From Nocardioides marinus (GTDB lineage: Bacteria; Pseudomonadota; Alphaproteobacteria; Rhodobacterales; Rhodobacteraceae), in NCBI GenBank assembly GCA_019801415.1, contig JAHVJD010000010.1, positions 1 to 64,000 of the forward strand: 64,000 nt of DNA. The letters run 5' to 3'. Made by a program: the position numbers and the translations under genes. Every line of letters starts with the position of its first letter. Positions within the stretch are counted from its first letter, which is position 1. This document shows positions 1,027-11,375 of this stretch, piece by piece. Under the pieces are notes generated by a model. It had not been told where the DNA came from and searched no databases. It saw only the letters and a program-made list of their open reading frames with translations.

Positions 1027-1899
1027 TCAGGAGAACTTGCGGAACAGCCGCGTCATGTCGAACAGCTCGTCCAGCCTGTCGTATCGCTCCTTGGTCTTGT
1101 CCCAACTCTCCTCCTGAGTGGCCGCAATCATCGCCTCGAGCAACATCATGGTGGAAATGTTGGAGTCCCAAGCCGAGGGGATCTCCACCCAGCAATTGAA
1201 GACATGGTCCGCAACAGAGGCAATCGGGCTGGTCCACTGATCGGTGATCAACACCACCTTCACGCCCCGCTCGGCCGCCAGTTCAGCGAGGCGCTGCAGA
1301 TTTGTCTCGTAGCGGCGCACGTCGAACATCAGCAATGTGTCGCCTTCGACCATGTCCAGCACGTAGTGCGGCCAGGTCGCCGAGGAGGATGTCATATGGG
1401 TGACCCGCTGGCGAATGGCCTGGAAGTGAGTAAAGGCGTAATCGGCCAGCGCCCGCGTGATCCGGCCGCCAACGACATAAAGACGCCCCTCCGTATTGGC
1501 GAGCTGCCGGGCTGCCGCATCGAATTGCGCGGAGTCGATGTTTGAAAATGTCTGCTGGAGGTTTTCGGTGACGGCAGTGGCAAAGCGGTTCAGCAGGTGC
1601 CCCTCAGGCGCTTCGGACGCCCAGTTGTCCCGCCGCTTGGTCGGCCCGGAGACCTTGGCCTCCAACTCCTTGAGAAGCGCCTGATGGAACTGCGGATACC
1701 CTTTGAACCCCAGCTTCTGCACCATCCGCGCCACCGTCGGCGTGGAGACATCCGCGTTGGCCGCAACGATGGTGATCGAAGCCAGCCCGGCCGCCGGGTA
1801 GTTTTCAAGCAGGCGATTGGCAAATTTCCGTTCGGACTGGGTAAGCCCGGCAAAATTCTCGCGGATCAACTCGCGTACGGTGGCTGGCGGCTTGGTCAA
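1027..1899 (-). CDS. MurR/RpiR family transcriptional regulator
   Basis: 290 aa with an N-terminal RpiR-type helix-turn-helix (about residues 1-80, including LTQSERKFANRLLENYP and the recognition-helix region VSTPTVARMVQKLGFKGYPQF) and a C-terminal SIS domain (about 120-260) that normally binds a phosphosugar or related ligand. The start is TTG at 1899, preceded by GGGAG at a suitable distance; no ATG fits better. The gene diverges from the amidohydrolase-TRAP-dehydrogenase operon at 2052, and the space between holds several TTC-N3-GAA dyads. It is therefore the probable local repressor of that operon. The ligand cannot be read from the sequence. Confidence 0.9.
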   Translation of the reverse strand: MTKPPATVRELIRENFAGLTQSERKFANRLLENYPAAGLASITIVAANADVSTPTVARMVQKLGFKGYPQFHQALLKELEAKVSGPTKRRDNWASEAPEGHLLNRFATAVTENLQQTFSNIDSAQFDAAARQLANTEGRLYVVGGRITRALADYAFTHFQAIRQRVTHMTSSSATWPHYVLDMVEGDTLLMFDVRRYETNLQRLAELAAERGVKVVLITDQWTSPIASVADHVFNCWVEIPSAWDSNISTMMLLEAMIAATQEESWDKTKERYDRLDELFDMTRLFRKFS

Positions 1900-1941: not shown

Positions 1942-2024
1942 CTCTGAAGAAAATCTTTCAGAGCCGTCCTGTCGGAAAACTTCCATGAAAGTATATTGAC
2001 ACAAAAATCTCTTCATGGAAACAT
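1942..2024 (+). promoter_or_regulatory. promoter with three dyads, probable RpiR operators
   Basis: Between the RpiR gene and the operon at 2052 lie CTCTGAA (1942-1948) facing TTCAGAG (1957-1963), then TTCCATGAA (1981-1989) and TTCATGGAA (2012-2020). The last two are each TTC-N3-GAA palindromes, are reverse complements of each other, and are 31 bp apart centre to centre (three helical turns). A sigma-70-like -35 TTGACA (1996-2001) with a weak AAACAT at 2019-2024 lies between and over them, so binding would block the promoter. The dyads are seen; RpiR as the binder is inferred from position. Confidence 0.55.
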
Positions 2025-2051
2025 TTTTCCAAGCCTCAGGGGGGACGATAA

Positions 2052-2837
2052 ATGCAAGTGAGTGATTCTCACGCTCAGGATACAGCCGTGGAGGTGGTGA
2101 ACGCGGACGGTAGCGGCCAGGTCTTGCTGCTGTGTGAACACGCCTCCAATCACATTCCGGACCGTTATCAGGGGCTGGGACTGCAACAGGAACACCGCCT
2201 GAGCCATGCTGCCTGGGACCCCGGCGCGCGGGCCGTGGCGCTGCACCTGTCCCGCGCCCTCGATGCGCCGCTGGTGGCGGGTCGCGTCTCGCGGCTGGTA
2301 TATGATTGCAACCGTCCGCCCGAAGCCCCCTCTGCCATGCCGGAAAAATCCGAGCTGATCGAGGTGCCCGGCAATCGCGGCTTGACGGACGCCCAACGGC
2401 AGGAACGCGTGGCGACGGTGTATGCCCCCTTTTGCGCCGCGACCACCAAGCTGATCGAGGCGCGCAAGGCCGCAAATGTGCCGACGGTACTGGTCACCAT
2501 GCACAGTTTCACCCGCCACTACTATGGCAAGGAACGGGCCGTGGAGATCGGCATTCTGCACGACAGCGACAGCCGACTGGCGGATGCGATGCTCGCTGCC
2601 GCTCCGGCCTTGCCGCACCGCCGGATCGAGCGGAACGAGCCATACGGGCCGCAGGACGGGGTGACCCATTCGCTGCAGATCCACGGGATCGCCCATGGGC
2701 TCGACAACGTGATGATCGAGATCCGCAACGACCTGCTGTCGACCCCCGCGGACGAGGAAGCGCTGGCAGAGGAGACGCTCACCCTGCTGCGCCCTGCCCT
2801 GGCCGCATTGACGCCGAAGGGGGACACCAATGCCTAA
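2052..2837 (+). CDS. N-formylglutamate amidohydrolase family protein
   Basis: 261 aa of the zinc-dependent N-formylglutamate amidohydrolase family (PF05013). Visible family motifs are CEHASNHIPDRY near residue 30-40, RLVYDCNRPP near 85, and TMHSFTRHYYGKERAVEIGIL near 155-175, with the expected His and Glu metal/substrate residues. Known members deformylate N-formylglutamate in histidine breakdown, but no other hut genes are here. The gene is first in an operon with a TRAP transporter, a GS-like ligase and two dehydrogenases and overlaps dctQ by 8 bp. I infer it may hydrolyse another N-acyl or gamma-glutamyl amide made in this pathway; that role is untested. Confidence 0.85.
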   Translation: MQVSDSHAQDTAVEVVNADGSGQVLLLCEHASNHIPDRYQGLGLQQEHRLSHAAWDPGARAVALHLSRALDAPLVAGRVSRLVYDCNRPPEAPSAMPEKSELIEVPGNRGLTDAQRQERVATVYAPFCAATTKLIEARKAANVPTVLVTMHSFTRHYYGKERAVEIGILHDSDSRLADAMLAAAPALPHRRIERNEPYGPQDGVTHSLQIHGIAHGLDNVMIEIRNDLLSTPADEEALAEETLTLLRPALAALTPKGDTNA

Positions 2838-3426
2838 GGTAATCCGGGCCTACGTCCGCGGCATCGACGCGATGAACCGCTTTATCGGCCGCATTGCGAT
2901 GTATCTGATCTTTGCCCTGATCGGGGTGCTGTTGTGGTCCTCGGTCTCCAAGACCTTCTTCAACCCGTCCCTGTGGACGCTGGAAACGGCGCAGTTCGTG
3001 ATGGTCGCCTATTACATTCTGGGCGGCCCCTATTCGATCCAGATGGGCTCCAACGTGCGGATGGATCTGTTCTACGGCAGCTGGTCGGTGCGCACCAAGG
3101 CGCTGGTTGATGCCTTCACCGTGCTGTTCCTGATCACCTACCTCGTGATCCTGATGTACGGCGCGCTCAGCTCCACCGCTTATTCTCTGGGATACTTCGG
3201 GATGGAGCCGCTGCAGTTCTTCTGGGAGCTGCTCGTCACGCTGGTGACCGAAGGCTTCAGCGCCGCGGGCGAAAAACTGGGCTATCTCGAGCGCAGCTCG
3301 ACCGCCTGGCGGCCCTTCCTGTGGCCGGTGAAAACCATTCTCTGCTTCGGCGTCTTCCTGATGCTGCTGCAATGCCTTGCTGAACTGTTCCGGGATATCG
3401 GACGCCTGCGTGGAGTTGAAATCTGA
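2830..3426 (+). CDS. TRAP transporter small permease (DctQ type)
   Basis: 198 aa with four hydrophobic helices (approximately residues 17-38, 52-75, 93-116 and 158-185), the layout of the small membrane subunit of tripartite ATP-independent periplasmic transporters. It works with the large permease and the periplasmic binding protein encoded directly downstream to import an organic anion using a sodium gradient. Its ATG lies within the end of the amidohydrolase gene, and its TGA shares one base with the ATG of the next gene, so the three are translationally coupled. At about 200 aa it is slightly longer than most DctQ subunits because of the loop between helices 3 and 4. Confidence 0.9.
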   Translation: MPKVIRAYVRGIDAMNRFIGRIAMYLIFALIGVLLWSSVSKTFFNPSLWTLETAQFVMVAYYILGGPYSIQMGSNVRMDLFYGSWSVRTKALVDAFTVLFLITYLVILMYGALSSTAYSLGYFGMEPLQFFWELLVTLVTEGFSAAGEKLGYLERSSTAWRPFLWPVKTILCFGVFLMLLQCLAELFRDIGRLRGVEI

Positions 3427-4928
3427 TGTCCTACGAATGGATTGCGATCGTCATGTTTGCCGGCATGATGCTGATGCTGATGACCGGCCAGCGCGTGTTC
3501 GGCGCCATCGGCTTTGTCGGCGCGGTTGCGGGCATGCTCCTGTGGGGCACCGGCGGGGTGGAGATTCCCTTCTCGGCCGCGATGAAGCTGATGAAGTGGT
3601 ATCCGCTGCTGACGCTGCCGATGTTCATCTTCATGGGCTACGTGCTGTCGGAATCGAAGATCGCCGACGACCTCTACCGGATGTTCCACGTCTGGATGGG
3701 CCCGGTGAAGGGTGGCCTGGCCATCGGCACCATCGGCCTGATGGTGTTGATCTCGGCAATGAACGGCCTGTCAGTTGCTGGCATGGCCATCGGCGCCACC
3801 ATCGCGCTGCCGGAACTGCTGCGCCGTGGCTATGACAAGATCCTGGTGACGGGCACCATCCAGGCCGGGTCGTCGCTGGGCATCCTCGTGCCGCCCTCGG
3901 TGGTGCTGGTGCTTTACGCGATGATCGCCCGCCAGCCGGTGGGACAGCTGTGGCTGGCCGGCGTGGTGCCGGGTCTGCTGATGGCCACCATGTTCATCAT
4001 CTACATCTACCTGCGCGCCCGCATGCAGCCCGACCTCGGCCCTGCTATGGCACCCGAGGACCTGGCCGAGTACGAGACCATCTCCGACCATCCGCTGCGG
4101 CTGAACTACATCGTTCTGGGCGCGCTGGTGCTGGTGCCGCTGTTGATCCAGACCGACCTGCTGGAGGCGAAACCCGCGCTCGGCCTGGCCGCGGCACTCG
4201 CAGCATTGTCTTTCGTGACCCGCAAGAACCCGCTGTTCTACAAAGACATCTTCATGAAGGAGAAGTACCGCCTGCTGTTCTCGGGCGTGCTGCCTCTGGC
4301 GATCTTTGCCGCCATGATGGTGCCCTTCGTGAACGGCTGGACCTCGCTGGTCGAAAGCTCTGCCATCGGTGCGATGACCGCCTTTATCGCTGCGGTGCTG
4401 AAAGGGCGCATGAACAAGGAGGTCTTCGAGATCTCCGTGCGTTCCACCCTGGGGATCTCCTGCATGTTCATGTGGATCATCCTGGCGGCACTGGCCTTTG
4501 GCGCGATCTTCGACGGGCTGGGCGCGGTCAAGGCGATCGAGGACCTGTTCACCACCAAACTGGGTCTGTCCCCCTGGATGATCCTGATCCTGATGCAGCT
4601 CAGCTTCATCGTGATGGGGACCTTCCTCGATGACACCGCAATGCTGGTGATCGTGGCGCCGCTTTACGTGCCGCTGGTGGGCGCGCTCGGGTTCGACCTG
4701 ATCTGGTACGGTGTGCTTTACACCATCACCACCCAAATCGCCTACATGACCCCACCCTTCGGCTACAACCTGTTCCTGATGCGCGCCATGGCACCGCCGG
4801 AGATCGGGCTGAAAGACATCTATGTCTCGATCATCCCCTTTGCCGCGGTCATGGTGGTGGCACTGGCGCTGATCATGGTCTTCCCGCAGATCGCCCTGTG
4901 GCTGCCGGAATATGTCTACGGAAAATAA
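3426..4928 (+). CDS. TRAP transporter large permease (DctM type)
   Basis: 500 aa, strongly hydrophobic, with about 12-13 predicted membrane helices. Family hallmarks include GQRVFGAIGFVG near the N terminus, QAGSSLGILVPPSVVLVLYA around residues 145-165 and the C-terminal YMTPPFGYNLFLMRA. It is the transport subunit of the TRAP system with the DctQ protein upstream and the DctP protein downstream. The length is above the usual 425-450 because of an extended cytoplasmic segment around residues 200-275 (MAPEDLAEYETISDHPLR), which is typical of one DctM subfamily. Substrate cannot be assigned from this subunit. Confidence 0.93.
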   Translation: MSYEWIAIVMFAGMMLMLMTGQRVFGAIGFVGAVAGMLLWGTGGVEIPFSAAMKLMKWYPLLTLPMFIFMGYVLSESKIADDLYRMFHVWMGPVKGGLAIGTIGLMVLISAMNGLSVAGMAIGATIALPELLRRGYDKILVTGTIQAGSSLGILVPPSVVLVLYAMIARQPVGQLWLAGVVPGLLMATMFIIYIYLRARMQPDLGPAMAPEDLAEYETISDHPLRLNYIVLGALVLVPLLIQTDLLEAKPALGLAAALAALSFVTRKNPLFYKDIFMKEKYRLLFSGVLPLAIFAAMMVPFVNGWTSLVESSAIGAMTAFIAAVLKGRMNKEVFEISVRSTLGISCMFMWIILAALAFGAIFDGLGAVKAIEDLFTTKLGLSPWMILILMQLSFIVMGTFLDDTAMLVIVAPLYVPLVGALGFDLIWYGVLYTITTQIAYMTPPFGYNLFLMRAMAPPEIGLKDIYVSIIPFAAVMVVALALIMVFPQIALWLPEYVYGK

Positions 4929-4980
4929 TCAACGAGAGCCTTGCCAAGGGGCCGGATATTTCAACAAGGAGATGAGACGA

Positions 4981-6015
4981 ATGACAACGAGACGCAAGTT
5001 TTTGCAAACTGCCGGCGTCGGCGCCATGGCAGCGCCCCTCGCCACCCCGGCCCTCGCGCAATCCACCATCAAATGGCGGATGCAGACCTACGCCGGTGCA
5101 GCACTGGCCGAACATGTGGTGAAACCAGCCATCGACATGTTCAACAAGGTTGCCGGAGACCGGATGCAGATCGAACTCTATTATGCCGACCAACTGGTCC
5201 CGACCGGTGAACTGTTCCGCGCCATGCAGCGCGGCACCATCGACGCGGTGCAGTCGGATGACGACTCGATGGCCTCGCCGACCGAAGTCACCGTGTTCGG
5301 CGGCTACTTCCCCTTCGCCTCTCGTTACTCGCTGGATGTGCCGGTGCTGTTCAACCAGTACGGCCTGAACGAAATCTGGGACGAGGAATACTCCAAGGTC
5401 GGCGTCAAGCACATCTCCGCGGGCGCCTGGGACCCTTGCCACTTTGCCACCAAGGATCCGATCAACTCGCTGGCGGACCTCAAGGGCAAGCGCGTCTTCA
5501 CCTTCCCGACCGCCGGTCGCTTCCTCAGCCAGTTCGGCGTGGTGCCGGTCACCCTGCCTTGGGAAGACATCGAAGTCGCCATGCAGACCGGCGAACTGGA
5601 CGGCGTGGCCTGGTCGGGCATCACCGAAGACTACACCGTTGGCTGGGCTGACGTGACCAACTACTTCCTGACCAACAACATCTCCGGCGCCTGGGCCGGG
5701 TCGTTCTTTGCCAACCAAGAGCGCTGGAACGAGCTGCCCGAAGACATGCAGACCCTGTTCCGCGTCTGCTGTGACCAGTCGCACTACTACCGTCAATGGT
5801 GGTACTGGGGTGGCGAAGCATCCTTGCGCGTGAACGGCGACAAGATGAAGCTGACAACCATTCCGGACAACGAATGGCAGCAGGTCGAAGACGCCGCAGT
5901 GAAGTTCTGGGACGAAATCGCCGCCGAAAGCCCGACAAAGGCCAAGGTGGTCGAAATCTTCAAGAAGTACAACTCGGACATGCAAAAGGCAGGCCGCCCC
6001 TACCGCTATAGCTAA
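4981..6015 (+). CDS. TRAP transporter substrate-binding protein (DctP type), Tat-exported
   Basis: 344 aa starting MTTRRKFLQTAGVGAMAA, a twin-arginine signal (TRRKF) with cleavage expected after ALA in TPALAQS. The mature domain follows the DctP fold: KWRMQTYAGAALAEH at the start, then the DLKGKRVFTFPTAGRFLSQFG region around 160-185, where the family uses a conserved Arg to bind a carboxylate or similar anion. An upstream in-frame start exists at 4912, but AAGGAGATGAGACG directly before 4981 and the signal peptide fix the start there. It captures the operon's substrate in the periplasm. Confidence 0.92.
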   Translation: MTTRRKFLQTAGVGAMAAPLATPALAQSTIKWRMQTYAGAALAEHVVKPAIDMFNKVAGDRMQIELYYADQLVPTGELFRAMQRGTIDAVQSDDDSMASPTEVTVFGGYFPFASRYSLDVPVLFNQYGLNEIWDEEYSKVGVKHISAGAWDPCHFATKDPINSLADLKGKRVFTFPTAGRFLSQFGVVPVTLPWEDIEVAMQTGELDGVAWSGITEDYTVGWADVTNYFLTNNISGAWAGSFFANQERWNELPEDMQTLFRVCCDQSHYYRQWWYWGGEASLRVNGDKMKLTTIPDNEWQQVEDAAVKFWDEIAAESPTKAKVVEIFKKYNSDMQKAGRPYRYS

Positions 6016-6130
6016 GGGACCGCTTGAAAAGACGGAGTTTGGCCTGCACCCGCCGGCCAGGCTCCTGGACCAAGTAATTTGCCAAGGCTTTCATGAACAC
6101 GTCTTGGCTCCAGCACGCAAAGGGCTGCTC

Positions 6131-7483
6131 ATGCTCTCCTTCGACGATTTGAAAACCCAGGTGTCTTCCGGCCTGGTCGATACGGTTCTGGTCTGCCTGG
6201 TGGACATGCAGGGCCGCCTGATGGGCAAACGCTTTCATGCGCAGCACTTCATCAACGGCGCCTGGGAAGAAACCCACTGCTGCAACTACCTCTTGGCCAC
6301 CGACCTGGAGATGGCGACACCGGACGGCTATGCCTCCACCTCCTGGGAAAGCGGTTACGGCGACTACGTGATGAAGCCGGACCTGGAAACCCTGCGTCCG
6401 GTGCCTTGGCTGGACGGCACCGTGATGGTGTTGTGCGATGTCCTCGATCACAACACCCACAAGGAAGTCCCGCATTCCCCGCGCGCGATCCTGAAAAAGC
6501 AGGTGAACCGCCTCAAGGCGATGGGCTATGACGCCATGTGCGCCACCGAACTGGAATTCTTCCTGTTCGAGCAGAGCTTTGACGAGATCCGCAAAGCGGG
6601 CTTCCGCAATCTGGCGCCGATTTCAGGCTACAACGAAGACTACAGCATCCTGCAGACCACCCGCGAAGAGCACGTGATGCGCCCGATCCGCAACCACCTG
6701 TGGAACGCGGGCCTGCCGATCGAGAACTCCAAGGGTGAGGCTGAGACCGGCCAGGAAGAGCTGAACATCAAATACGCCGCCGCGATGGACACGGCGGAAT
6801 ACCACACCATCGCCAAGCATGCGGTGAAGGAAATCGCCCAGCAGCAAGGCCATGCAGTGACCTTCCTGCCGAAGTGGAGCCACGAAAAGGTCGGCTCCTC
6901 CAGCCATGTGCATCAGTCGCTGTGGCAGGACGGCAAGCCCGCGTTCTATGACGAAAGCGACGACTTGGGCATGTCGGCGCTGATGAAGAGTTATATGGCG
7001 GGTCTGCTGAAATACGCGCCCGACTACACCTATTTCATGGCGCCCTATATCAACAGCTACAAACGCTTCATGAAGGGCACCTTTGCCCCCACCCGCATCA
7101 TCTGGTCCGTGGACAACCGCACCGCGGGCTACCGGCTGTGCGGCGCAGGCACCAAGGCGATCCGGGTGGAATGCCGCATTCCGGGCTCTGACATGAACCC
7201 CTACCTGGCGATGGCAGGCATGCTGGCGGCAGGCATCGCGGGCATCGAGGAAGGCCTGGATCTGCAGGCACCCGCGAAGGGCGACGTCTACCAGGGCGAC
7301 AGCGGCCTGATCCCCGGCAACCTGCGTGACGCGGGCGCGGCGCTGAAAGCGTCTGAAATGTTGCGCACCGCCCTGGGCGACGACGTGGTGGATCACTATG
7401 TCCGCGCCGCCGAGGTGGAAATCGAGGAATTCGAACGCGTGGTCACCGACTACGAGATCGCGCGAGGGTTCGAGCGGGCGTAA
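6131..7483 (+). CDS. glutamine synthetase family protein, probable gamma-glutamyl amide ligase
   Basis: 450 aa with the GS fold: an N-terminal beta-grasp region (1-100) and a catalytic domain with ELEFFLFE (about 140), the KVGSSSHVHQSL loop (about 260) and NRTAGYRLCGAGTKAIRVECR near 345. In true ammonia-using GS the N-terminal region carries a FDGSS motif; here the position reads TSWESGYGDYVMKPD, as in ligases that join glutamate to an amine (PuuA, IpuC, GlnA4 types). The neighbours, alcohol and aldehyde dehydrogenases and an amidohydrolase, match pathways that oxidise a gamma-glutamylated amino alcohol. The start at 6131 follows AAAGGG; an upstream TTG at 6104 is less likely. The amine substrate is unknown. 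Confidence 0.85.
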   Translation: MLSFDDLKTQVSSGLVDTVLVCLVDMQGRLMGKRFHAQHFINGAWEETHCCNYLLATDLEMATPDGYASTSWESGYGDYVMKPDLETLRPVPWLDGTVMVLCDVLDHNTHKEVPHSPRAILKKQVNRLKAMGYDAMCATELEFFLFEQSFDEIRKAGFRNLAPISGYNEDYSILQTTREEHVMRPIRNHLWNAGLPIENSKGEAETGQEELNIKYAAAMDTAEYHTIAKHAVKEIAQQQGHAVTFLPKWSHEKVGSSSHVHQSLWQDGKPAFYDESDDLGMSALMKSYMAGLLKYAPDYTYFMAPYINSYKRFMKGTFAPTRIIWSVDNRTAGYRLCGAGTKAIRVECRIPGSDMNPYLAMAGMLAAGIAGIEEGLDLQAPAKGDVYQGDSGLIPGNLRDAGAALKASEMLRTALGDDVVDHYVRAAEVEIEEFERVVTDYEIARGFERA

Positions 7484-7520
7484 ACCGCTACCGGGCGGCA
7501 CCGGCGCAAGACGCGGGCCA

Positions 7521-7563
7521 CCCGGGTATTTTGACCAGAAAGAAACAGGGGCAAGCTGCCCCT
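7521..7563 (+). repeat. intergenic repeat of the CCCGG-TATTT type with GGGGC hairpin
   Basis: CCCGGGTATTTTGACCAGAA is followed by an AGGGGCA-AGC-TGCCCCT hairpin (7547-7563). The same two modules recur, in different order, at 18458-18489 and 38448-38545, always after a gene end. Here they lie between the ligase and aldehyde dehydrogenase genes and may be a processing or attenuation point within the operon. Confidence 0.45.
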
Positions 7564-7581
7564 TGGAATGGAGTTGTTGGC

Positions 7582-8964
7582 ATGGGCCAGACACTGAAGT
7601 GCATCTCGCCGATCGACGGATCGGTTTTTGCCGAACGCGAAACCCTGTCGCGCGAAGCGGCGACTGACGCCGTGGCGCGCGCGCGCAGCGCCCAGGCCGC
7701 CTGGGCGGCCCGTCCTCTTCAGGAGCGGATCGACCTGGTGATGGCCGGCGTCGCCGCCGTGGGCGCCATGAATGACGAGATCGTGCCCGAACTCGCTCAC
7801 ATGATGGGCCGCCCGGTGCGCTACGGTGGTGAATTTGGCGGCTTCAACGAGCGCGCCAGCCACATGGCGAAAATCGCCGAGGAAGCGCTTGCGGATATCG
7901 AGGTCGGAGACGACGCCAGCTTCAAGCGCTACATCAAACGCGTGCCGCATGGGGTTGTGCTTGTCGTTGCCCCCTGGAATTACCCCTACATGACCGCGAT
8001 CAACACCGTGGCACCTGCGCTGATCGCAGGCAACACGGTGCTGCTGAAACACGCGACGCAAACCCTTCTGGTGGGCGAACGCATGGCGCAGGCCTTTGCC
8101 TCTGCCGGTGTGCCCGCGGATGTGTTCCAGAATGTCTTCCTCGATCACGACACCACGTCGGCGCTGATCGCCGAGAAGGCCTTCAACTTCGTCAACTTCA
8201 CCGGTTCCGTCGGCGGCGGCAAAGCGATGGAACGCGCTGCGGCAGGCACCTTCACCGGCGTCGGCACCGAACTGGGCGGCAAGGATCCGGGCTATGTCAT
8301 GGAAGACGCCGATCTGGACGCCGCGGTCGACACGCTGATTGACGGCGCCATGTTCAACTCCGGTCAGTGCTGCTGCGGCATCGAACGGATCTACGTGCAT
8401 GAAAGCCTGTTCGACGCCTTCCTTGAAAAGGCTATCGCCATCGTCAAAGGCTACAAGCTCGGCAACCCGCTGGACGAGGCGACCACCATCGGCCCGATGG
8501 CCAACGTCCGCTTCGCCAAGGAAGTGCGCGAACAGATCGCCGAGGCCGTTGCGGCCGGCGCCACCGCCCATATCGAGACCATGCCCGAGGACGACGGCGG
8601 CGCGTACCTCACGCCGCAGATCCTGACCAACGTGACCCACGATATGCGCGTGATGCGCGAGGAAAGCTTTGGCCCGGTTGTCGGCATCATGAAGGTCACC
8701 TCCGACGAGGAAGCCATCAAGCTGATGAACGACAGCGACTTTGGCCTGACCGCCTCGCTCTGGACCAGGGATCTGGAGCGGGCACAGCGCGTCGGTGACC
8801 AAATCGAAACCGGCACCGTGTTCATGAACCGCGCCGACTACCTGGATCCGGGCCTGTGCTGGACCGGCTGCAAAGACACCGGTCGCGGTGGCGGGCTGTC
8901 CGTCATCGGCTATCACAACCTGACCCGTCCGAAGTCCTACCACCTGAAGAAAGTGGCAGGCTGA
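7582..8964 (+). CDS. aldehyde dehydrogenase family protein
   Basis: 460 aa NAD(P)-dependent aldehyde dehydrogenase. The oxyanion region PWNYPYMTAINTVAPALIAGNTVLLK lies at about 132-157, the general base Glu in TELGGKDPGYV near 231, and the catalytic Cys in NSGQCCCGIER, where the GQxC position is Cys264 (flanked by two further Cys). The C-terminal FMNRADYLDPGLCWTGCKDTGRG matches the family. The start at 7582 has GGAG 8 bases upstream; an in-frame ATG at 7531 would add a non-conserved tail. It would oxidise the aldehyde produced by the iron alcohol dehydrogenase encoded next. Natural substrate is inferred, not known. Confidence 0.93.
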   Translation: MGQTLKCISPIDGSVFAERETLSREAATDAVARARSAQAAWAARPLQERIDLVMAGVAAVGAMNDEIVPELAHMMGRPVRYGGEFGGFNERASHMAKIAEEALADIEVGDDASFKRYIKRVPHGVVLVVAPWNYPYMTAINTVAPALIAGNTVLLKHATQTLLVGERMAQAFASAGVPADVFQNVFLDHDTTSALIAEKAFNFVNFTGSVGGGKAMERAAAGTFTGVGTELGGKDPGYVMEDADLDAAVDTLIDGAMFNSGQCCCGIERIYVHESLFDAFLEKAIAIVKGYKLGNPLDEATTIGPMANVRFAKEVREQIAEAVAAGATAHIETMPEDDGGAYLTPQILTNVTHDMRVMREESFGPVVGIMKVTSDEEAIKLMNDSDFGLTASLWTRDLERAQRVGDQIETGTVFMNRADYLDPGLCWTGCKDTGRGGGLSVIGYHNLTRPKSYHLKKVAG

Positions 8965-9027
8965 GGACACCCTGCCCGCTCCGAAGTCTCCTCCCGGAGC
9001 GGGCTGTTTGCATCAAAGGAAAACGAC

Positions 9028-10173
9028 ATGAGCCTCGTTGGAAACTGGTCCTACCCGACCGCAATCAAATTCGGCGCCGGCCGGATCAAGGAACTGGCCG
9101 ATGCCTGCGCGGCAGCCGGGATCAAGAAACCGCTGCTGGTCACCGACAAGGGGCTGGCGGATCTGCCGGTCACCCAGTCCACCCTCGACATCATGGAAGC
9201 GGCAGGTCTGGGCCGCGGCATGTTCTCGGACGTGGATCCCAACCCGAACGAGAAAAACCTCGAAGCGGGCGTCGAAGCCTACAAGGCCGGCGGCCATGAC
9301 GGCGTGATCGCCTTCGGCGGCGGCTCCGGCCTGGATCTGGGCAAGATGGTGGCCTTCATGGCCGGTCAGACCCGCCCGGTTTGGGATTTCGAGGACATCG
9401 GCGACTGGTGGACCCGCGCGGATGCCGACGCCATCGCCCCGATCATCGCAGTGCCCACCACTGCAGGCACGGGATCCGAGGTCGGCCGCGCCAGCGTCAT
9501 CACCGACAGCGTCACTCACCAGAAGAAGATCATCTTCCACCCCAAGGTGCTGCCCACCGTGGTGATCTGCGATCCCGAGCTGACCGTGGGCATGCCCAAG
9601 TTCATCACCGCAGGTACCGGTCTGGATGCCTTTGCGCATTGTGTCGAGGCGTTCTCCTCGCCGCATTACCATCCGATGTCCCAGGGCATCGCGCTGGAAG
9701 GCATGCGTCTGGTCAAGGATTACCTGCCGCGCGCCTATGCTGACGGCACCGATATCGAAGCCCGCGCGCAGATGATGTCCGCCGCCGCCATGGGCGCCAC
9801 CGGCTTCCAAAAGGGGCTCGGCGCGATCCACGCCATGAGCCACCCGATCGGGGCGCATTTCAACACCCACCACGGCACCACCAATGCGGTCTGCATGCCC
9901 GCAGTGCTGGAGTTCAACGCGCCGGTAATCGCCGACCGGTTCAACATGGCAGCGGCCTACCTGGGGATCGAAGGCGGCTTTGACGGCTTCCGCGCCTTTG
10001 TGCAGGAGCTGAACGACTCCTTGGGCATTCCGCGCAAGCTGTCCGATCTGGGCGTGACCGAGGCCTCGATCCCAGATCTGGTCAAGGGCGCGATCATCGA
10101 CCCGTCCTGCGGCGGCAACCCCGTCGAGCTGACCGAGGAAAACCTGACCCAACTCTTCAAGGCGGCCCTCTAA
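9028..10173 (+). CDS. iron-containing alcohol dehydrogenase
   Basis: 381 aa group III alcohol dehydrogenase. The NAD-binding GGGSGLDLGKMVAFMA motif is around residues 93-108, the specificity region PTTAGTGSEVGRASVITD at about 145-162, and the metal ligands lie in AGTGLDAFAHCVEAFSS (Asp and His near 198-202) and in HAMSHPIGAHFNTHHGTTNA (His residues near 270-285). ATG at 9028 follows AAGGAAAACGAC. It ends the operon before a strong terminator at 10196. In the proposed scheme it oxidises the alcohol function to the aldehyde used by the preceding enzyme. Confidence 0.93.
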   Translation: MSLVGNWSYPTAIKFGAGRIKELADACAAAGIKKPLLVTDKGLADLPVTQSTLDIMEAAGLGRGMFSDVDPNPNEKNLEAGVEAYKAGGHDGVIAFGGGSGLDLGKMVAFMAGQTRPVWDFEDIGDWWTRADADAIAPIIAVPTTAGTGSEVGRASVITDSVTHQKKIIFHPKVLPTVVICDPELTVGMPKFITAGTGLDAFAHCVEAFSSPHYHPMSQGIALEGMRLVKDYLPRAYADGTDIEARAQMMSAAAMGATGFQKGLGAIHAMSHPIGAHFNTHHGTTNAVCMPAVLEFNAPVIADRFNMAAAYLGIEGGFDGFRAFVQELNDSLGIPRKLSDLGVTEASIPDLVKGAIIDPSCGGNPVELTEENLTQLFKAAL

Positions 10174-10258: not shown

Positions 10259-11263
10259 TCAGAGCGTTTCGCCCAGGCTGATCGCAGGGTGCAACCGGTC
10301 GAACACCAGCTCTCCTCCCGCGTCACCGCTACGCGATTGCAGGATGATCTTCGCCGCGCGCTCGCCAATTTCGCGGCGGCAGGCGTCGGTGGTGGCCAGC
10401 TGCTTGGGCAGCCCCTGCAACAATTGCAGATTGTTGAACCCGGCCAACGCGATGTCGTCCGGGACGCTCAACCCGGTCGCGAGACAGTGCATCAGCCCGC
10501 CAACGCTCATCACGTCGCTGGAATAATAGATACAGTCCAGGTCCGGGCTGCGCGCCAGCATCTGCGCCGTCAGCTGGCGCCCGGTCTGGATTGAGCTTTC
10601 GCCGGAGTAATGCTCGCGATCCGCCAGCGTCACCCCTTGCGCCGCCAGCCCGTCGGTAAAACCGTCAAAGCGCTTACGGGCCCGGAAGTCCTGCGGCATC
10701 TTGGTGCCGATAAAACCAATCCGCCGGTAGCCTCGGGCGAGGATCTGTTCCGCCATGCCGCGCCCCGCGTCCAGATGCGAAATGCCGACGCAATGACGCA
10801 CTGGTTCACCGTCCACATCCATCACCTCGACCACCGGGCAATCCGCCTGCTGCAGCATCCGCCGTGTCGGGTCGGAATGCTCCAGCCCGGCGACGATCAG
10901 CCCGGACGGCCGCCAGCTCAGCATTTCGCGGATGACCTCTTCTTCCTCTTCCAGTGCGTAGCCTGAAATGCCAACCACCGGCTTCAGCGGGCTGTCGCGC
11001 AGCACCGCGGAAATGCCGGACAGCACCTCGGGAAACACGAAACTGTTAAGCGACGGCACCACCACCGCCACCAGGTTCACCGACTGCGACGACAGGGAGC
11101 CCGCGATCCGGTTCGGCACATAGCCATGGATGCGGGCGATTTCCTCGACCTTGGACTTGGTCTTGGCCGAGACATCTGGCGCCCCGCGCAACGCGCGCGA
11201 GGCCGTCATCTCGCTGACCCCTGCGAGCCGGGCCACATCTTTCAGCAACAGTTTTTTTGTCAT
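10259..11263 (-). CDS. LacI family transcriptional regulator
   Basis: 334 aa with an N-terminal LacI helix-turn-helix (LLLKDVARLAGVSEMTASRALRG, residues 4-26) and hinge, followed by a periplasmic-binding-protein-like effector domain (GFIGTKMPQDFRARKRFDGF about 180, CIYYSSDVMSVGGL about 245, DDIALAGFNN about 280). The start ATG at 11263 places the HTH at the very N terminus; longer in-frame starts add a non-conserved leader. It is divergent from gap, and tandem dyads typical of LacI-family operators lie between them, so it probably regulates itself and gap. The sequence looks GntR/gluconate-like, but the effector is not certain. Confidence 0.92.
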   Translation of the reverse strand: MTKKLLLKDVARLAGVSEMTASRALRGAPDVSAKTKSKVEEIARIHGYVPNRIAGSLSSQSVNLVAVVVPSLNSFVFPEVLSGISAVLRDSPLKPVVGISGYALEEEEEVIREMLSWRPSGLIVAGLEHSDPTRRMLQQADCPVVEVMDVDGEPVRHCVGISHLDAGRGMAEQILARGYRRIGFIGTKMPQDFRARKRFDGFTDGLAAQGVTLADREHYSGESSIQTGRQLTAQMLARSPDLDCIYYSSDVMSVGGLMHCLATGLSVPDDIALAGFNNLQLLQGLPKQLATTDACRREIGERAAKIILQSRSGDAGGELVFDRLHPAISLGETL

Positions 11264-11306
11264 GACCCCATGGTCTTGCAGTTCGCCGCCAGCCGCAAGA
11301 GGAGAA

Positions 11307-11375
11307 CGTTGCAACGCAGAGCTTGATTTACGCTTCCGTTATCGCTATCAGTGGCGCAGCCGTTATCGATACCGG
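11307..11375. promoter_or_regulatory. tandem LacI-type operators between the LacI gene and gap
   Basis: CCGTTATCGCTATCAG (11336-11351) and CCGTTATCGATACCGG (11360-11375) are two copies of an imperfect dyad with a central CG, the usual symmetry of LacI-family sites; their centres are 24 bp apart. A perfect 10-bp palindrome CGTTGCAACG (11307-11316) lies closer to the regulator gene. All sit in the 145 bp between the divergent starts. The repeats are directly visible; the identity of the binding protein is inferred. Confidence 0.6.

Follow-up and report, generated by a model that had tools for sequence, protein, structure and literature searches.

The operon at positions 2052-10173 of the window, by which we mean the whole stretch of 64,000 nucleotides analyzed here, is almost certainly an ethanolamine utilization operon of the EtoX/gamma-glutamylation type. 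Its gene set is already known, the operon being an ordinary copy of the ethanolamine operon published for marine bacteria. In Phaeobacter sp. MED193, the corresponding operon (MED193_10021-10056) encodes an RpiR regulator, a gamma-glutamylglycine amidohydrolase, EtoV, EtoW, EtoX, an ethanolamine gamma-glutamylase, a gamma-glutamylacetaldehydeamide dehydrogenase, and a gamma-glutamylethanolamide dehydrogenase (PMC10132767). The same eight genes are present in the window in identical order, and no difference between the two was found in this comparison, which is one of published gene order rather than of aligned MED193 sequences. The order RpiR, FGase-family amidohydrolase, TRAP genes Q, M, and P, glutamine-synthetase (GS)-like ligase, aldehyde dehydrogenase, and iron-containing alcohol dehydrogenase is that of an EtoX-type operon. 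Among Phaeobacter and Roseobacter relatives carrying the same operon, the identity to the window proteins ranges from about 67-69% for the FGase to 92-94% for the iron-containing alcohol dehydrogenase. The initial annotation had read the genes as a pathway for the gamma-glutamylation of an amino alcohol, and the gene-for-gene match to the MED193 ethanolamine operon bears this out.

The window begins at the first base of its contig, and the genome is alphaproteobacterial, with a size of 3.9 Mb. The regulator, of the RpiR/MurR family with HTH_6 and SIS domains (1027-1899, minus strand; counterpart MED193_10021), is divergent from the operon, whose genes all lie head to tail on the plus strand, with overlaps or short gaps between them. 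The first is the FGase-family amidohydrolase, a probable gamma-glutamylglycine amidohydrolase (GGAH, 2052-2837), followed by the TRAP small permease DctQ (EtoV, 2830-3426) and the large permease DctM (EtoW, 3426-4928). The TRAP substrate-binding protein DctP (EtoX, 4912-6015) carries a Tat-type signal, and its true start is probably near 4972. The GS-fold ligase, the putative ethanolamine gamma-glutamylase (ETAGA), spans 6104-7483, with the ATG near 6128 as the probable start. Family matches and synteny again point to the aldehyde dehydrogenase (7531-8964), the true start of which may be further in than 7531, as a gamma-glutamylacetaldehydeamide dehydrogenase (GAADDH), and to the iron-containing alcohol dehydrogenase (9028-10173) as a gamma-glutamylethanolamide dehydrogenase (GETADH). 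All the parts that had been named between 2052 and 10173 are thus present, in the families given for them. The description of the operon as flanked by RpiR holds on the upstream side only, the gene directly downstream (10259-11314, minus strand) encoding a LacI/GntR-type regulator. The latter adjoins the operon in just 14 of 67 close relatives and is not counted as an operon member.

The proposed route would start with the import of ethanolamine, a head group of membrane lipids, by the TRAP transporter EtoVWX. The GS-fold ligase would then consume ATP to join ethanolamine to the gamma-carboxyl group of glutamate, and the alcohol of the resulting gamma-glutamylethanolamide would be oxidized to the aldehyde by the iron-containing alcohol dehydrogenase and further to gamma-glutamylglycine by the aldehyde dehydrogenase. 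Hydrolysis by the FGase-family amidohydrolase would finally yield glutamate and glycine. We infer each enzymatic step in the window genome from homology and synteny, and the sequence of intermediates is the one given for MED193, namely ethanolamine, gamma-glutamylethanolamide, the aldehyde, gamma-glutamylglycine, and glutamate plus glycine (PMC10132767). What has been shown elsewhere is that EtoX homologues bind ethanolamine and that the Phaeobacter operon proteins are co-induced on phosphoethanolamine, the MED193 operon proteins being upregulated during growth on this compound; the MED193 EtoX binds ethanolamine with a Kd of 7.9 uM, while phosphoethanolamine, phosphocholine, G1P, and G3P are left unbound (PMC10132767). 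The EutBC ethanolamine ammonia-lyase route is absent from the window genome, in which EutB (PF06751) has no match. A search of the newer literature on the EtoX-type ethanolamine pathway found nothing further.

It is very improbable that close analogues (e.g., alaninol, serinol, or 3-amino-1-propanol) are processed by the operon alongside ethanolamine and that ethanolamine is not its main substrate in vivo. GS-fold ligases of the ETAGA type can be broad, and few ligands of EtoX were tested in PMC10132767, but in the same study the homologous operon is induced by supplied phosphoethanolamine and the homologous EtoX has a micromolar affinity for ethanolamine.

The association of these genes is well conserved. 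By ligase identity, the nearest named relatives are Leisingera (90-92%) and Phaeobacter/Roseobacter strains (about 89%). In a sample of 67 named close relatives, having a ligase at least 80% identical and both flanks available, the ligase locus contains the iron-containing alcohol dehydrogenase in all 67, the aldehyde dehydrogenase in 65, the FGase in 63, and RpiR and the three TRAP genes in 56. Since the neighbors recur in 56-67 of the 67 relatives, the gene order is conserved far beyond chance. The whole operon is located on a plasmid in Paracoccus denitrificans PD1222. On the conjugative plasmid pMET3 of Aminobacter sp. NyZ550 (L081), the ethanolamine core lies directly beside bhcRABCD, the genes of the beta-hydroxyaspartate cycle. 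This cycle uses glycine and glyoxylate, so the arrangement fits glycine as the product of the pathway.

Among 289 genomes of the class, 31 have the ligase (at least 45% identical), 36 have EtoX, and 18 have both, where about 4 would be expected (Fisher p = 4e-11, uncorrected for relatedness); the other 18 of the 36 EtoX genomes have no ligase at this threshold. The linkage is looser at this scale, a recognizable FGase being present at the ligase locus in only 9 of the 31 genomes. At five loci (L044, L046, L050, L051, and L055) the ligase is directly followed by the iron-containing alcohol dehydrogenase, and the aldehyde dehydrogenase and FGase are not adjacent.

The nature of the substrate is indicated by the TRAP binding protein. 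The window DctP and PDB 4uab, which we take to be the ethanolamine complex of Csal_0678 from Chromohalobacter salexigens, are 85% identical across 318 amino acids. Csal_0678 is an ethanolamine-binding protein without the usual Arg-147 equivalent (PMC4646407), and a review singles out the ethanolamine cation as especially surprising among the ligands of TRAP proteins (PMC5812351). In 4yzz, a TRAP protein of a more typical kind, the LNMRIGG motif contains an Arg that aligns with Phe196 of the window DctP, and 4uab has the same residues as the window protein at this position. The window DctP thus belongs to the group of ethanolamine-binding TRAP proteins that do not have the selectivity Arg. Because this Arg is replaced by Phe in both the window DctP and 4uab, the argument that a TRAP importer implies an anionic ligand is inapplicable to the EtoX subgroup. 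The initial annotation had used that argument to propose an amino alcohol with an acid group, and the proposal fails on this point. Gamma-glutamylation of an acid-bearing amino alcohol, imported by a carboxylate-type TRAP transporter, would agree with the carboxylate ligands of most TRAP binding proteins (PMC4646407), and the enzyme set is compatible with other small amino alcohols too. The similarity to 4uab and the presence of Phe instead of the carboxylate-binding Arg make it exceedingly improbable, as does the finding that other transporter types substitute for the TRAP genes beside the same enzymatic core, namely EamA in Ruegeria conchae and an amino-acid permease in Sinorhizobium.

The GS-fold ligase is 75% identical to PDB 5dm3, presumably Csal_0679, the C. 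salexigens gene neighboring Csal_0678, and 55% identical to PDB 11zs. In a FastTree tree that also contained the other GS-domain proteins of the genome, GlnA and PuuA of E. coli, two GmaS, and NpaA1, a single clade unites the window ligase with 5dm3, 11zs, and the homologues from across the class. The group containing PuuA is the nearest to it, while GlnA and GmaS fall outside and NpaA1 is also apart. The window ligase is thereby grouped with that of C. salexigens and separated from the ammonia-dependent glutamine synthetases, in a tree without GlnA4 and IpuC. Clustering with the ammonia-dependent enzymes, the outcome named at the outset as contrary to a gamma-glutamylation role, did not occur.

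The alignment with GlnA shows that the FDGSS ammonia loop is replaced by YASTSWES, with loss of its Asp and Ser, and that the HEVAT motif retains its Glu. The motif TSWESGYGDY, which had been proposed to replace FDGSS, is indeed present in the ligase, but only its first part corresponds to that loop, GYGDY being aligned with ESDMV of GlnA. Three known enzymes were rejected as identities for the ligase. A canonical GlnA is at odds with the replaced loop, the separate clade, and an NCBIfam GlnA score of 255 bits against a cut-off of 429; GmaS (type III glutamate--ammonia ligase, TIGR03105) gives 231 bits against 470 and is likewise in a separate clade; and the gamma-glutamylputrescine synthetase PuuA (NF045547) reaches 193 bits against 650. 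An AlphaFold model of the ligase, with 13 close homologues, has a pLDDT of 44.5, too low to be of use. No GmaS was found above the cut-off in the own genome, although one is present in 12 of 12 genomes sampled from its genus, which are also larger (4.6-5.3 Mb vs 3.9 Mb).

The FGase-family amidohydrolase, assigned by Pfam to FGase (PF05013), is of the Atu2144 type, with 54% identity to Atu2144 (PDB 2odf). The motifs CEHAS, DCNRPP, HSFT, and EIRNDL are common to it and its nearest homologue. The Phaeobacter FGase has been assigned as the gamma-glutamylglycine amidohydrolase (PMC10132767), and the family member SCO1615 has been proposed for the same step beside the Streptomyces GlnA4 (PMC6529630). 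The suggestion that an FGase-family enzyme stands in for the PuuD-class hydrolase as the releasing enzyme is thus in agreement with the literature on both organisms, although for the same reason the amidohydrolase is not unusual, as had been thought, but the standard published assignment. The literature basis of the FGase-type step appears to consist of prediction and proteomics rather than a purified-enzyme assay.

The Pfam family alone would also accommodate a HutG-like N-formylglutamate deformylase that merely sits in the operon. This is highly unlikely, because the HutG of the genome itself adjoins HutH on another contig and the window FGase matches it only weakly and locally (28% over 98 amino acids), no NCBIfam model matches the window FGase, and a gene of its family lies beside the ligase in 63 of the 67 close relatives, including several that lack the TRAP genes. 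With no hut linkage and only the weak partial match, the window FGase was not assigned to the HutG deformylases.

Four alphaproteobacterial genomes (G001, G168, G041, and G286) have clusters of FGase and EtoX-type TRAP genes (L176-L179, EtoX 74-86% identical), and no clade ligase at least 45% identical was found in them, either in the cluster or elsewhere. RpiR is present in L176, L177, and L178 and absent in L179, which retains the aldehyde and iron-containing alcohol dehydrogenases and has only about 200 bp at the expected place of the ligase. EutB was not found in any of the four genomes, and each has other GS-domain genes. It is unlikely that the FGase of EtoX operons does more than hydrolyze gamma-glutamylglycine or that it takes the product of a different ligase. 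In the own genome, the region C5:615-8206 (L075) contains a second FGase of the Atu2144 type, 43% identical to the window FGase, about 6 kb from a GS-like gene for which the best model is gamma-glutamylputrescine synthetase, below the cut-off. This region is possibly a second gamma-glutamylation cluster.

The operon would be under the control of the divergent RpiR, probably acting as a repressor that responds to the substrate. Between the two lies a probable promoter/operator (1996-2030, plus strand), with TTGACA at 1996 and GAAACATTTTTCC at 2018. Of the 29 upstream regions with an RpiR at least 70% identical (the window counted), 14 contain the latter element in the form GAAANATNTTTCC, and all 48 others, whose RpiR is more divergent, lack it; GAAANATNTTTCC is for this reason a candidate RpiR site. 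It is better conserved among the upstream regions than the 9-nt inverted repeat TTCCATGAA/TTCATGGAA that precedes the FGase gene and was rejected as the RpiR operator, being found in only 1 of 77 upstream regions, that of the window itself.

Several other known systems resemble the window operon. C. salexigens Csal_0678/0679 shares the ethanolamine-binding TRAP protein (85%) and the ligase (75%), and the Agrobacterium Atu2144 cluster shares the FGase type (54%), both in hosts distant from the window genome. The source that PMC10132767 and PMC4646407 cite for Csal_0678/0679 and the Atu2144 cluster is Vetting et al. 2015. The GlnA4 cluster of Streptomyces coelicolor likewise combines a GS-like gamma-glutamylethanolamide synthetase with the dehydrogenases SCO1611 and SCO1612 and the proposed FGase-family enzyme SCO1615, but it is actinobacterial, and its description includes no operon of the TRAP-RpiR type (PMC6529630). 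The E. coli Puu pathway (PuuA, PuuC, PuuD) follows the same logic of glutamylating an amine, oxidizing it, and hydrolyzing the product, but differs in its putrescine substrate and its PuuD-class hydrolase, and the window ligase is only about 28% identical to PuuA.

The analysis places this gene set of the window in a published pathway that connects phospholipid turnover with the supply of nitrogen and carbon in the sea.
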